A DNA stretch of 35,639 nucleotides from positions 257,821 through 293,459 of the forward strand of contig NZ_JALXFV010000005.1 in NCBI RefSeq assembly GCF_023699475.1, read 5' to 3'. A program made the translations under genes and the position numbers. Positions 1,726-12,073 of the stretch are shown in pieces. The notes below the pieces were generated by a model. The model was not told the DNA's origin. It was given only the letters and a program-made list of their open reading frames with translations, and searched no databases. How positions within the stretch are numbered: position 1 is the stretch's first letter; every line of letters begins with the position of its first letter. This DNA comes from Halomarina rubra (lineage in GTDB: Archaea; Halobacteriota; Halobacteria; Halobacteriales; Haloarculaceae).

Positions 1726-2849
1726 CCCACCACCTCGGCGAGCGCGTCGACGACCTGCGCACAGTGCTCGTCGTCGACGACGAGCGGCGGGAGCAAGCGG
1801 AGGACCGACCGGCCCGCCGGGAGCGCGAGCACTCGGTGGTTCATCGCCAGCGTGGGGAGCAGACGGTTCGCACCGCGCTTGACCTCGACACCGACCATCA
1901 GCCCCTCGCCGCGGACCTCCCGCACGTCCTCGCCGATTGCGGCCTGCAACTCGGTCAGCAGGTGGTCGCCCGTCGTCGCGGCGTGACCGGGCAGATCCTC
2001 CTCGACCAGTACGTCCAGCGTGGCGTTGGCCGCGGCGGCGACGACCGGCCCACCCGAGAACGTCGAGCCGTGGGGGCCGGCGTCCTCGGCGACCCACTCC
2101 CGACAGAGCGTCGCCCCCAGCGGAAGCCCGCTGGCGAGTCCCTTCGCAGTCGTCAGGATGTCGGGCGTCACGCCGTGGTGTTCGCACGCCCAGAACGCGC
2201 CGGTGCGACCGAGACCGGTCTGAATCTCGTCGAGTATCATCGCCGCGCCGTGCTCGTCACACGCCTCGCGGACCGACTGGAGGTACCCCGCAGGGGCGGG
2301 GTTGATACCGCCCTCGCCCTGCATCGGTTCGAGGACGACGCCGGCCGTCTCGTCGTCGACGGCCTCGGCCATCGCGGCGGCGTCGCCGTACTCGACGAAC
2401 TCGACGCCGCCGGCGAGCGGTTCGAACGGCTCGCGGTACTCGTTCTTCCACGTCGTCGCCAGCGCGCCCATCGTCCGCCCGTGGAACCCGCGGGTCGTCG
2501 CGACGATCTTCGAGCGACCGGTCGCACTCCGGGCGAACTTCAGCGCGGCCTCGTTGGCCTCGGTCCCGGAGTTACAGAGCCAGACGTGCTCGCAGTCGCC
2601 GGGACCGAGCGAGCCGAGGCGGTCGTAGAGGCCGTCGCGCACGTCGACGGGGTACGACCCCTGGACGTACAGCAACTCGCCGGCCTGCTGCTGGACCGCC
2701 TCGACGACGTCGGGGTGACAGTGCCCGACGGGTGTGACGGCGTACGACGCGCCGAAGTCGAGGAACTCCGTCCCCGAGTCGTCGTAGAGGTGGACGCCCT
2801 CGCCGCGCTCGATGCGCAGCGGTTTCTCCGAGAAGACGAAGCCGCTCAC
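1722..2849 (-). CDS. argD: [LysW]-ornithine/lysine aminotransferase (class III, PLP)
   Basis: Class III pyridoxal-phosphate aminotransferase that aminates the LysW-bound glutamate semialdehyde with glutamate as donor. 375 residues. Visible marks are the NSGTEANEAALK phosphate-binding loop (from about residue 93), GFHGRTMGAL, D207 in ILDEIQTG and the PLP lysine K236 in TTAKGLASG. The start is GTG at 2849, overlapping the argB stop as GTGA; the same frame runs upstream through argB but only as its shadow. Equivalent to ArgD/LysJ of the carrier-protein pathway. The role in arginine rather than lysine synthesis is inferred from the operon. Confidence 0.94.
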   Translation of the reverse strand: MSGFVFSEKPLRIERGEGVHLYDDSGTEFLDFGASYAVTPVGHCHPDVVEAVQQQAGELLYVQGSYPVDVRDGLYDRLGSLGPGDCEHVWLCNSGTEANEAALKFARSATGRSKIVATTRGFHGRTMGALATTWKNEYREPFEPLAGGVEFVEYGDAAAMAEAVDDETAGVVLEPMQGEGGINPAPAGYLQSVREACDEHGAAMILDEIQTGLGRTGAFWACEHHGVTPDILTTAKGLASGLPLGATLCREWVAEDAGPHGSTFSGGPVVAAAANATLDVLVEEDLPGHAATTGDHLLTELQAAIGEDVREVRGEGLMVGVEVKRGANRLLPTLAMNHRVLALPAGRSVLRLLPPLVVDDEHCAQVVDALAEVVG

Positions 2850-3763
2850 TGCTCTGCCTCCGCGGTCTCGGTGTCGCGCTCCTCGGACAGCGCACCGGGC
2901 AGGACCGTCGTTCCGGTACCCTCCAGCGCGGCGCTGACGGGAGCGTCGGCGTTCGCGTCGCCGATGGTGACGCTCGTCGCGCCGCCCTCCAGTGCCTCGG
3001 TCGCGGCCATCACCTTCCGGGTCATGAACCCCTCGGCGGCGTCGGTGAGGGACTCGTACTCGGTGGGGGTGTCGACCACGTCGATGACCGAATCGGGGTC
3101 GTCGAGGTCCGCGAGGACGCCGGGGACGTCGGTCAACAGGACGAGGTCGGCGTCGAGCGCACCCGCGACGGCGGCCGCCGCGCGGTCGGCGTCGGAGTTG
3201 ACCGCGAGCCACTGTTCGGAATCCTTCGCGAGCATCGGCACGGTGACGACGGGCGTGTAGCCCCCCGCGAGCAGGGTGTCGAGCAGGTCCGAGTCGACCT
3301 GCTTCACCGTGCCCGAGTGGTCGCCACGGCGAATCTTCTGCTTGTCGTCCTCGACGACGCGAACGGCGGACTTCCGGGGACCCTTGAGCAGACCACCGTC
3401 CACGCCCGAGAGACCGACCGCGTTCACGCCGGCGTTCTGGAGGCCGACGACGAGGTCGGTGTTCAGCTTCCCGGGCAGCACCATCGAGAACACCTCCATG
3501 GTGCGCTCGTCGGTGAACCGGCCGACGACGCCCGAGGGTGTCTCGACGTACTCCGGGTCCTCGCCGAGCGATTCCAGCGTGTCGTCGACCGCGGTCGAGC
3601 CACCGTGGACGACGACGACCTGCTCGCCGTCGCCAGAACGCGCTGCGTTCTGGCTGCCTGCCGAGGTTCCCTCGGCACTGGAGTCGACGAGCGAGGCGAC
3701 GTCGGCGAGTGCGCCTGCTGGGTCGACGGCGCGTGCGCCGCCGATTTTTACCACAGTCACCAT
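2846..3763 (-). CDS. argB: [LysW]-glutamate/aminoadipate kinase with an in-frame palindromic insertion
   Basis: Amino-acid kinase family enzyme that phosphorylates the side-chain carboxylate of LysW-bound glutamate (ArgB/LysZ). 305 residues. It opens with the kinase strand VVKIGGA, has the VVVVHGG glycine loop near residue 49, and ends with the ATP-site region around LLTDVPG and SDADRAAAAVAG. Residues about 28-44 form an extra low-complexity loop (AEGTSAGSQN and flanks) not expected in this family; it is coded by two tandem palindromes at 3633-3653 and 3659-3677. The ATG at 3763 is immediately next to the argC stop. Function should be tolerant because the insert lies in a loop before the second strand, but this is inference. 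Confidence 0.93.
   Translation of the reverse strand: MVTVVKIGGARAVDPAGALADVASLVDSSAEGTSAGSQNAARSGDGEQVVVVHGGSTAVDDTLESLGEDPEYVETPSGVVGRFTDERTMEVFSMVLPGKLNTDLVVGLQNAGVNAVGLSGVDGGLLKGPRKSAVRVVEDDKQKIRRGDHSGTVKQVDSDLLDTLLAGGYTPVVTVPMLAKDSEQWLAVNSDADRAAAAVAGALDADLVLLTDVPGVLADLDDPDSVIDVVDTPTEYESLTDAAEGFMTRKVMAATEALEGGATSVTIGDANADAPVSAALEGTGTTVLPGALSEERDTETAEAEQ
3633..3678. repeat. Palindromic in-frame repeat, copy 1 (in argB)
   Basis: Two tandem perfect palindromes: CCAGAACGC / GCGTTCTGG with a 3-base loop (3633-3653) and TGCCGAGG / CCTCGGCA with a 3-base loop (3659-3677). The part 3646-3678 matches 10705-10737 at 30 of 33 bases. It codes for an extra loop in ArgB (about residues 28-44). Confidence 0.8.
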
Positions 3764-9712: not shown

Positions 9713-12073
9713 CTACGGTCGCGGCGGCGACCCACTCCACGCGTCCATATCGGAGTAGAAGTTGAGCATCGCGAACTTCAGCTTCCCCGGGTCGATGTCG
9801 ATCTGTTCGACGCGCTCCTCGGCGGGGAAGCCCTCCTTGACGCTGTACTTCTTCATCTCCCGGCGGGCGCGCTTGGTGTAGCGCTCGTCGAGCAGGATTC
9901 GCACCCCGAAGTCCTCCGGTGAGCGCACGACCCGTCCGAGCGCCTGTCGGGTCTTGCGAATCGTGGGGACCTCGACGGCGTACTTCCAGCCCACGTCCTT
10001 CCCGTCGAAGGCGGTGTCGTAGGCGTCCTGAACCGCGTCCATCCGGTCGTCGAGGTGCGGGTACGGAACACCCACGACCACGACCGACCGGGCGTCGTCG
10101 TCGTCGAAGCTCACCCCCTCGGCGAGCGTCCCCCACAGCGAGGTGAACAGCACGCCGTCGTCGTCCGCGACGAACCGCTGGCGGAGCTCCTCGGCGCGTT
10201 CGCCGGGGCGGTCGAGGTACCGCGTCGCCTCGACGTCCGGGTTCGCCCCGAGCAGGTCGTGGTAGCGCTCTGCCTCCCGGTAGCTGGGGAAGAACACGAG
10301 CGTGTTGCCGGGCGTGAACCGGACCGCGTCTGCGAGCGCCGAGGCGACGGTCGCCTGTGTCGACTGCTCTTCGCGCTTCGAGGCGAACAGCGCCGGGATG
10401 TCGACGGCGTACGTCCGACGGCGCTCCTCGGGGAACACCTCGCCGTAGGCCATCGTGAGCGGGCCGTCGGTGTCGGCCGCCTCCTCGTCCTTCTGGGCCT
10501 CGTCGTCCGCGCCGAGGTCGGACCCGGACAGGCCGAGGACGTCGCCGAGGACGTCGAACGGGCGCAGCGTCGCGCTCATCAGGACGCTCGCGTGGAGTTC
10601 GTCGAACAGCGGTTCGGTGACCCGTCGCGGGATACACGTGTACAACTCGGCCCGACCGTAGATGGTGTCGGTGTCGCTCGTCGCGGTCCCGCCGTCGGTC
10701 GTCACGTTCTGGCTGTTTGCCGAGGCTCCCTCGGCACCGTCGTCGCCCTCGGTCGCGTCGTAGCGGCCCGGTTCACGAACCGAGACGACGGGGTACTGCC
10801 CCTCCTCGTCGGAGTCGCGCAACCAGTCGTCGACGAACGTCGCCGCCTGCAACACGCGACACTCCTTGCGAGTCCGGGTCTCGCCCTCCTTGTACGCCTC
10901 GTGGTACTGCCGGTCGAGCGCCTTCCCGAGTTCCAGCGCCACGTCCAGGTCCTCGTGGATTCCCTGACCGGTGTAGGCGTCGAGGAACGCCAGGGTGAGG
11001 TCGTCGCGCCCCCGGTCGTTGGTGATGGAGAGGTCGTACCAGTCCTCGCCGACCTCCTCGCGTTCGCCGTACGCCAGCGCGTCCTCGTAGGTGCGGACGA
11101 GCGCCTCGCGGAACGCGCTGACGACGTTCTCCGCGGGTTCGACGCGCGGGTCGGCGGTCTCGGCGAGTTCCGCCAGCGCGCTGTCGACCGTCGGTTCGGC
11201 GAGCGTCCGCGTCGCGTGGTCGCGCGCCGCGTCCTCGACGTTGTGCGCCTCGTCGAAGACGACCACCACGTCCTCCGGGTCGCGACCCAGCCACCGGAAG
11301 AACTGCTCGCGGATCATCGGGTCGAGCAGGTGGTGGTAGTTACAGACGACGAGGTCGACGCCCTCCATCCCCTCTTTGAGCAACTCGTACCCGCAGAAGC
11401 CCTCTTCGTGGGCGTGTTCGTATATCTCGTCGGGCGTCCGGACGTCCTCGAACAGCCACTCGTAGAACGGGTCGGTGTCGGCGACGAGGTTCTTCCGGTA
11501 GTACTCACAGACCGACTGGTCGCGTAGCTCTTCGAGTTCGGACTCCAGCGCCGTCATCTCGTCCATCACGGCCTGCCGGCTGGCGGTCGCTTCGTCGGCC
11601 GCCGCACCGCCCATCCCGGCGCTGTCGGCCTCGTCCTGGGCTTCTTCGAGCAGGTCGTCGCTCATCGCCCCCAACTCCGCACGGTCGGATTCGACCTCGA
11701 CGAGTTCCTTGGTCGTGTCCCGGAGCGCCTGGCACTCCTCGTAGCCCACGTCGATGTGGCACATCGAGGACTTGCCTCGGAAGACGACGGTCCGAATCTG
11801 CTCCTGGCGGGTGATGGCCCGAGCCTCCTCGATGAACTGGCGGGTCTGCTGGTGGACGTTCGTCGTGATGACGACCGTCTTGTCGGTCCGACGGGCGTGT
11901 TCGAGCGCGGGGACGAGCGCCGCGAGGGTCTTGCCAGTCCCGCAGGCCCCCTCGAACAGCACGTCGCGGCCGTCGTCGAGCGCACCCGAAATCGAGTCCA
12001 TCGCCTCTCGCTGGTGGTCGTACGGACTCCCGTACGGGAAGAATCGGAGGTCCTCGGGCGACGGCTGACTCAC
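9713..12073 (-). CDS. XPD/Rad3-like superfamily 2 DNA helicase with FeS cysteines
   Basis: 786-residue ATP-dependent DNA helicase of the XPD/Rad3/DinG group, probably in DNA repair. Motif I is GACGTGKT (42-49), the motif II box is DEAH (274-277), a late motif is SATLRPFD, and motif VI is QALGRVVRS. Cysteines C105, C114, C189 and C227 between motifs I and II are candidates for the 4Fe-4S cluster; an acidic coiled insertion separates the second and third. Residues 447-457 (AEGASANSQNV) lie in an unusual Ser/Thr/Gly/Asp-rich insert coded by a palindromic repeat also found in argB. The start is GTG at 12073 with a TATA-like box about 28 bases upstream. Confidence 0.9.
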   Translation of the reverse strand: MSQPSPEDLRFFPYGSPYDHQREAMDSISGALDDGRDVLFEGACGTGKTLAALVPALEHARRTDKTVVITTNVHQQTRQFIEEARAITRQEQIRTVVFRGKSSMCHIDVGYEECQALRDTTKELVEVESDRAELGAMSDDLLEEAQDEADSAGMGGAAADEATASRQAVMDEMTALESELEELRDQSVCEYYRKNLVADTDPFYEWLFEDVRTPDEIYEHAHEEGFCGYELLKEGMEGVDLVVCNYHHLLDPMIREQFFRWLGRDPEDVVVVFDEAHNVEDAARDHATRTLAEPTVDSALAELAETADPRVEPAENVVSAFREALVRTYEDALAYGEREEVGEDWYDLSITNDRGRDDLTLAFLDAYTGQGIHEDLDVALELGKALDRQYHEAYKEGETRTRKECRVLQAATFVDDWLRDSDEEGQYPVVSVREPGRYDATEGDDGAEGASANSQNVTTDGGTATSDTDTIYGRAELYTCIPRRVTEPLFDELHASVLMSATLRPFDVLGDVLGLSGSDLGADDEAQKDEEAADTDGPLTMAYGEVFPEERRRTYAVDIPALFASKREEQSTQATVASALADAVRFTPGNTLVFFPSYREAERYHDLLGANPDVEATRYLDRPGERAEELRQRFVADDDGVLFTSLWGTLAEGVSFDDDDARSVVVVGVPYPHLDDRMDAVQDAYDTAFDGKDVGWKYAVEVPTIRKTRQALGRVVRSPEDFGVRILLDERYTKRARREMKKYSVKEGFPAEERVEQIDIDPGKLKFAMLNFYSDMDAWSGSPPRP
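10705..10737. repeat. Palindromic in-frame repeat, copy 2 (in the helicase gene)
   Basis: 33 bases, 30 identical to 3646-3678 in argB. It holds a perfect 8-base inverted repeat, TGCCGAGG and CCTCGGCA with a 3-base spacer (10718-10736), preceded by CGTTCTGG, the right half of a second palindrome that is complete in argB. It is read in the same frame in both genes. Confidence 0.8.

Follow-up and report, generated by a model that had tools for sequence, protein, structure and literature searches.

Why should two unrelated genes of one haloarchaeon, a kinase gene and a helicase gene, contain nearly the same palindrome, read in the same frame? The question arises from a 35,639-nt stretch of Halomarina rubra DNA (the window; all positions given here are window coordinates). 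Bases 3646-3678 lie in an argB-type amino-acid kinase gene (2846-3763, minus strand; Pfam AA_kinase, E 5e-32), and bases 10705-10737 lie in a DEAD_2/Helicase_C_2 (XPD/DinG-type) helicase gene (9713-12073, minus strand; identified by Pfam and by alignment of congeners). A preliminary description of this DNA reported that the two stretches are identical at 30 of 33 positions, and our recount agrees. Each contains, as also reported there, a perfect inverted repeat, TGCCGAGG-NNN-CCTCGGCA, with 8-bp arms and a 3-nt loop, and on the minus strand both are read in a common frame as AEG-T/A-SA-G/N-SQN. Dinucleotide shuffles predict 0.01 occurrences of their shared 20-base core in the window, which has two. 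It was proposed that these are copies of a small palindromic mobile element that enters genes in frame, comparable to the RPEs of Rickettsia. Many copies, empty sites in congeners, a single orientation and frame, and the position of the ArgB insert in a loop uphold that proposal. We consider it likely that the element is a non-autonomous mobile double hairpin, which works much as RPEs do and is held in genes by selection for frame and for a tolerable peptide.

Structure of the element

The argB insert is 51 bp long (3629-3679, minus strand) and codes for SAEGTSAGSQNAARSGD. The earlier interval, 3633-3678, was right in recognizing an insert and too short in its extent. Likewise, the palindrome and the second one in tandem with it are both real, while the unit itself is a double hairpin. 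On the coding strand, hairpin 1, TGCCGAGG-GAA-CCTCGGCA (3659-3677), is followed by the linker GGCA (3655-3658), one of the less variable parts of the element. Next comes hairpin 2, GCCAGAACGC-AGC-GCGTTCTGGC (3632-3654), whose 10-bp palindrome, GCCAGAACGC-nnn-GCGTTCTGGC, adjoins the first; a GAC (Asp) codon (3629-3631) closes the unit. Both hairpins are supported by sequence, folding and covariation, the latter over 60 copies. Folded as DNA, the argB strand gives exactly two hairpins (-21.7 kcal/mol, z = -4.85). The insert is a 73.8-bit match (3623-3682) of covariance model R2; an unfiltered R2 scan of the window gives likely chance matches of up to about 23 bits, and weak matches were excluded as evidence.

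In an AlphaFold model of ArgB, based on 12 aligned sequences, the insert is predicted as a low-confidence loop running from helix 15-27 to strand 48-54, with residues 30-44, inside the insert, at pLDDT <50. The surface-loop site suspected earlier is in line with this model, which places the insert in a loop. The peptide of the element is probably tolerated in ArgB and in surface loops of other proteins.

The helicase copy (10706-10741, minus strand), recognized by sequence match and R2 scan, is truncated. Its hairpin 1, TGCCGAGG-GAG-CCTCGGCA on the coding strand (10718-10736), is whole by sequence and fold, and hairpin 2 is cut to CCAGAACG; the second palindrome is indeed complete in argB and partial here, as had been noted. 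Alignment of congeners shows that this copy sits in a variable acidic linker of the gene, and the helicase of congener G006 has a full-length copy at the corresponding place.

The full element reads TGCCGAGG-nnn-CCTCGGCA, linker GGCA, GCCAGAACGC-nnn-GCGTTCTGGC, then GAC, and measures 45, 51 or 57 bp, with boundaries uncertain by up to 3 nt. The order of its parts is fixed: a first stem of about 8 or 11 bp, a short linker that reads GGCA or resembles GCCAA, a second stem that mostly has 7 or 10 bp, and Y-GAC. Most loops have 3 nt. The closest copies, those in H. rubra argB and FNR and in the G006 helicase, have identical stems and linker; every difference among them lies either in one of the 3-nt loops or in the first variable codon. 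Over the modelled stretch, in-frame copies in the genus measure 54, 60 or 66 nt, apart from one of 63 nt and the truncated helicase copy; other genus copies are mostly 64 or 66 nt, with multiples of three in 25 of 53. Each 6-nt step equals 3 bp of stem, or one codon per arm, and stem steps of this size keep palindromy and frame jointly. Another intergenic double-hairpin type, TGGACCATCACC ... GGCGACAAAAGG, is clustered in the H. rubra genome (L048:1501-2300, L050, L052).

Copies in the genus and beyond

Copies were gathered by sequence patterns and covariance models. In-frame copies number about ten in the H. rubra genome (4.07 Mb, 16 contigs), which has intergenic copies as well. Four near matches, all in one common frame, lie in the argB, helicase, ferredoxin-reductase-like and methyltransferase-like genes, and five near-exact copies are found in two congeners (eight genus genomes searched). 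Each of the eight Halomarina genomes gives 12-52 covariance-model matches at E <= 1, the weakest of which will include chance ones, from a model built on seven copies; model R1 was built from in-frame copies, with short calibration. The expectation that a wider search would turn up further copies, in the genome and in its relatives, was borne out.

A broader model (E <= 1e-4) matches 49 of 57 genomes and all 22 sampled genera of the family. In a sample of the phylum (E <= 1e-6), 13 of 19 genomes of the order Halobacteriales match and 0 of 101 genomes outside the order do, an imperfectly matched control in that its low-GC genomes offer fewer candidates. A pattern made of the linker, hairpin 2 and GACG only, run against 84,980 species genomes, finds 79 stretches, all labelled as haloarchaea except one given only as a Euryarchaeota MAG. 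Copies are present in Haloferax. Blastn of two consensus copies gives no match in named plasmid and phage collections, and Rfam gives none at the element (two weak sub-threshold matches and one snoRNA fall elsewhere). We found no earlier description of the element in haloarchaea in the open-access literature.

Several Halorubrum and Halopenitus genomes have intergenic copies with common flanks, TGGTGGGACGTT ... GACGTTGAACGG (L234, L235, L237, L247, L270, L285). These possibly represent an orthologous site or a structured RNA; two of them were tested against Rfam and gave no match. A 64-nt intergenic copy (L062:1501-1564) seemingly supplies, through GGTGACG, a stop for one gene and a GTG start for the gene that follows.

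Filled and empty sites

Fourteen loci were compared in filled and empty form, with one genome per species and several gene names assigned by eye. The copies are insertions, often private to one species, with net gains at clean sites of 15, 17 or 19 codons. At the argB site, the insert is absent from seven congeners and from 17 other haloarchaea aligned, one of which carries a different insert. The empty gene has about two codons here (in the seven congeners and nearly all of the 17), and the H. rubra insert adds 17. In G009, argB has a short acidic extension at the insert site. In G010, from another genus, argB (L174) has a two-hairpin insert of another kind, EDSEAQSASGRSSGHGPR, at the same loop of the protein, which suggests that the loop is a hot spot for insertions and that more divergent families of elements exist.

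For further sites, orthologues were found with two chimeric protein queries. Hef reads YHA-D-CGERRSPGNRNAPRSGD-AADP when filled and YHADAADP when empty, as it is in seven congeners (+17 codons). FolD reads RVD-VAERSSAGSRTPSDD-ADT versus RVDADT (+15), and endonuclease III G-VRESQSDSRANQNAERSGD-GQ versus GGQ (+19). Gains of 19, 15, 17 and 17 codons are seen in a GlyRS-like protein, an S9 peptidase, an M29 aminopeptidase and a DUF7095 protein, respectively. A QueE-like radical SAM protein, a CBS protein, TrpA and one unnamed protein are also filled in some species and empty in others, as are, less cleanly and in variable loops, an FNR-like reductase and an acyl-CoA dehydrogenase. Three of eight species carry the TrpA insertion, and their orthologues differ by paired changes in both stems; some shared insertions, such as this one, may be old. 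Both folD genes of G003 (L020, L028) contain the insert; duplication of folD probably came later than the insertion.

It could be argued that the peptide is an old, lineage-specific feature of these proteins, and that the palindromes simply follow from codon usage. Linkers of Asp, Glu, Ser and Gly are common in haloarchaea, as are GC-rich codons. Yet the closest congeners have empty sites, the same DNA unit recurs in unrelated genes and between genes, and the covariation of the stems is far above that of shuffles. For argB, Hef, FolD, DUF7095 and endonuclease III, the empty sites refute an old protein feature, and as a general account we find the idea highly improbable. The argB insert, in particular, does not occupy the same site across all haloarchaea, the outcome that would have spoken for an old family trait.

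Target site

Of 42 in-frame copies, 30 have GAC as the codon just ahead of the unit, and in 34 the unit itself closes with GAC or GAT. The Asp before the unit is usually already there in the empty site. The flanking GAC is either a preferred target or a 3-nt repeat made on insertion. In argB, endonuclease III and TrpA, the preceding codon is TCC, GGG and ATC, respectively; since these copies lack the preceding GAC, the final GAC belongs to the element. Filled and empty alleles had been recommended as a way to find target-site duplications, and their comparison reveals none longer than 3 nt. A duplication was also considered because GAC stands on both sides of most copies, and was rejected in view of argB, endonuclease III and TrpA, which lack this arrangement.

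The absence of a target-site duplication, the preferred short target and the hairpin-rich ends are all features that would be expected of a PATE or REP derived from IS200/IS605 and mobilized in trans by a Y1/HuH transposase (TnpA or RAYT). Moreover, Haloquadratum PATEs are described as shrinking to 52 bp, a form in which only the termini remain and mobility may persist (PMC3119063). However, six of the eight genus genomes (G000-G004, G007), among them the copy-rich G000, G002 and G004, lack PF01797 (Y1_Tnp). The other two genomes have seven loci, and model R2 places no copy of the element at the flanks of any; a single copy nearby lies inside tnpB. PATE termini, in addition, keep 20-50 nt outside the palindrome, versus about 3 nt here. 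With no PF01797 in copy-rich genomes and no element-flanked Y1_Tnp locus, we set this route aside as unlikely.

Reading frame and encoded peptide

Gene frames were assigned with a simple codon model, for which 102 ORFs served as training data. In the first set of copies, the best frame agrees on both flanks in 37, and the element is in frame +0 in all 37 (in two, L016 and L094, one flank scores weakly); no copy of this set has another common frame with coding scores on both flanks. In the set found with the hairpin-2 pattern, 22 copies, two of them also in the first set, have coding DNA on both sides, and again all 22 are in frame +0. The count of in-frame against other insertions, proposed in the preliminary description, thus gives one frame throughout for copies with coding flanks.

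Each of the remaining five frames is free of stops in 24-40 of 42 copies. A stop-codon filter was considered as the source of the frame rule and rejected, as the other frames are mostly open. Frame +0 encodes peptides with a mean charge of -2.45 and 6% large hydrophobic residues; the other five frames give peptides that are basic or more hydrophobic, and +0 alone is acidic and hydrophilic. The frame rule is most simply read as the outcome of selection, in salt-adapted proteins, against every other frame.

Among in-gene copies, a single exception to frame +0 was seen: in congener G005 (L221:2995-3060), a copy in reverse orientation is embedded in a tnpB reading frame, at its zinc-ribbon end. 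It shows that other insertions can occur, in this case in a gene that is likely under weak constraint. In several histidine-kinase-like genes (L141, L137, L263, L292), the unit stands beside an N-box-like motif. In one example, NAVEHGST-GNQNASRSGD-AVEHGST, hairpin 1 coincides with a motif that is repeated past the insert.

Covariation of the stems

Across 60 genus copies, standard pairs fill 95.0% of pair cells (shuffled mean 80.8), a percentage inflated by the fitting of the alignment to the structure. Two-sided changes are found at 15 of 17 pairs, with 138 double-change cells versus 8 single-sided, and pairing falls to 32-45% when partner columns are shifted by 1-3. The double changes are also plain in the raw sequences. 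G-U intermediates are nearly absent. That the stems covary as Watson-Crick pairs with almost no G-U points to upkeep of the palindrome at the DNA level. Such scarcity would fit a DNA palindrome and would be unusual for an RNA selected via G-U intermediates, and it makes the element a clean case for parting DNA-level from RNA-level upkeep of hairpins.

Alternatively, the hairpins might be selected for a function of their own in RNA or DNA (mRNA stability, translation pausing, binding of nucleoid or repair proteins), with the insertions fixed for that function. Conservation of the stems would accord with this, as would the occurrence of copies between genes in many genera, where some of them have conserved flanks. 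Against it, G-U intermediates are almost missing, Rfam has no match at the element, and the positions are scattered, often species-private, and in unrelated genes. We regard this alternative as quite improbable. Another proposal is that stem perfection is a by-product of template-switch repair, and that the units spread by rare ectopic recombination rather than transposition. The ratio of double to single changes, 138 to 8, is in its favor, as are the TrpA genes of three species, in which bases of both stems have changed in pairs at one and the same site. Nevertheless, an insertion step is needed for whole units of fixed length to arrive at unrelated sites whose flanks share no homology, and as a full explanation this proposal seems rather unlikely.

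Proposed mechanism and its meaning

In the reading that we favor, that of a mobile double hairpin, a short palindromic unit (45, 51 or 57 bp net; two unlike hairpins, linker and GAC) would insert, mostly directly behind a GAC (Asp) codon, and duplicate at most 3 nt of its target. Its survival within genes would require a length divisible by three together with one particular orientation and phase. The surviving phase would read x-AE-xxSA-xS-QN-x-RSGD, an acidic, flexible peptide that may be tolerated in halophilic surface loops. Complementarity of the stems would be kept at the DNA level, through continuing mobility of hairpin DNA or through template-switch correction of imperfect palindromes. 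Movement is probably transposition-like, with selection filtering its products.

A further possibility, toward which we are inclined to be skeptical, is that the element represents a new class of translatable archaeal mobile DNA: a codon-quantized double hairpin, moved by an IS200-independent route, inserted after Asp without target duplication, and confined in genes to one strand and phase. If true, such elements would provide haloarchaeal proteins with a continuing supply of new surface loops.

Protein-coding palindromes were previously a matter mainly of Rickettsiales and one cited archaeal case, and now extend across the order Halobacteriales. A single genus offers dozens of insertions, and the empty sites are clear; this makes it possible to test how palindromes enter genes without destroying them and whether in-gene palindromes feed protein evolution. 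Unlike Rickettsia, the free-living hosts include genera with good genetics, such as Haloferax.

Comparison with known systems

Like the PATEs of Haloquadratum walsbyi, as described in PMC3119063, the element is haloarchaeal, transposase-free and palindromic, and makes no target duplication. PATEs, in contrast, derive from IS605-type elements, have palindromes near both termini and are usually longer, and the passages of that paper that deal with them report no in-frame occurrence in genes. They are said there to have spread although nearly all local IS200-type transposase genes are broken. The ends of the element are shared with no IS605-type transposon locus of the genus (0 of 7 Y1_Tnp loci flanked). 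RAYT-mobilized REPs and REPINs differ in that no RAYT (Y1_Tnp) gene exists in the copy-rich genomes, and MITEs differ from an element that has two internal hairpins, no long terminal inverted repeat and no duplication >3 nt. By the features tested, then, it is not a PATE, a RAYT-type REP or a MITE. Mitochondrial double-hairpin elements and GC clusters, as described in PMC4478555, PMC7218506 and PMC2800124, resemble it in shape, adjacent hairpins forming one insertion unit; they are organellar, and the comparison is one of described shape alone.

CGTC-tagged REPs, bacterial in the account of Di Nocera et al. 2013 (PMC3733652), where Rickettsia RPE-4/6 are placed among them, share with the element short hairpins, intragenic copies and the lack of an associated transposase. 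Their unpaired CGTC stands by an 8-9-bp stem; here GACG is found on the coding strand, with GAC/GAT after stem 2 in 34 of 42 copies and a stem 2 of mostly 7 or 10 bp. By that account, their loops are 4-5 nt, whereas haloarchaeal loops are mostly 3 nt; the haloarchaeal element shows no CCA tail; and their dimers are mostly opposed (head-to-head), whereas the two hairpins here are unlike and have a fixed order and orientation. With a tag that may be similar, and with loop length and dimer order that do not agree, a link to these REPs is a lead.

RPEs and the protein-coding palindromes of Wolbachia occur in frame in many unrelated conserved genes, and also between genes, and are tolerated by the proteins (PMC10969869, PMC3767692, PMC2229807). 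The haloarchaeal element is likewise a repeated palindromic unit in frame within unrelated protein genes. It differs in length, with net inserts of 45, 51 or 57 bp versus about 100-150 bp for RPEs, and in consisting of two separate hairpins in GC-rich archaeal hosts. RPE sites of R. japonica are reported to be conserved across spotted-fever rickettsiae (PMC3767692), whereas many haloarchaeal sites are species-private; and RPEs are reported to lose repeat identity with time (PMC6649704), whereas most haloarchaeal stems are perfect. An archaeal precedent exists in M. jannaschii, in which palindromic repeats occur in frame in protein genes (Suyama 2005, as cited in PMC2229807 and PMC2996958); these too are archaeal palindromes fused in frame, from a methanogen, and are compared here by description only. 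Its length keeps the haloarchaeal element from being filed with any of these, and yet, in its behavior, it appears to work as the coding palindromes of Rickettsia, Wolbachia and M. jannaschii do.
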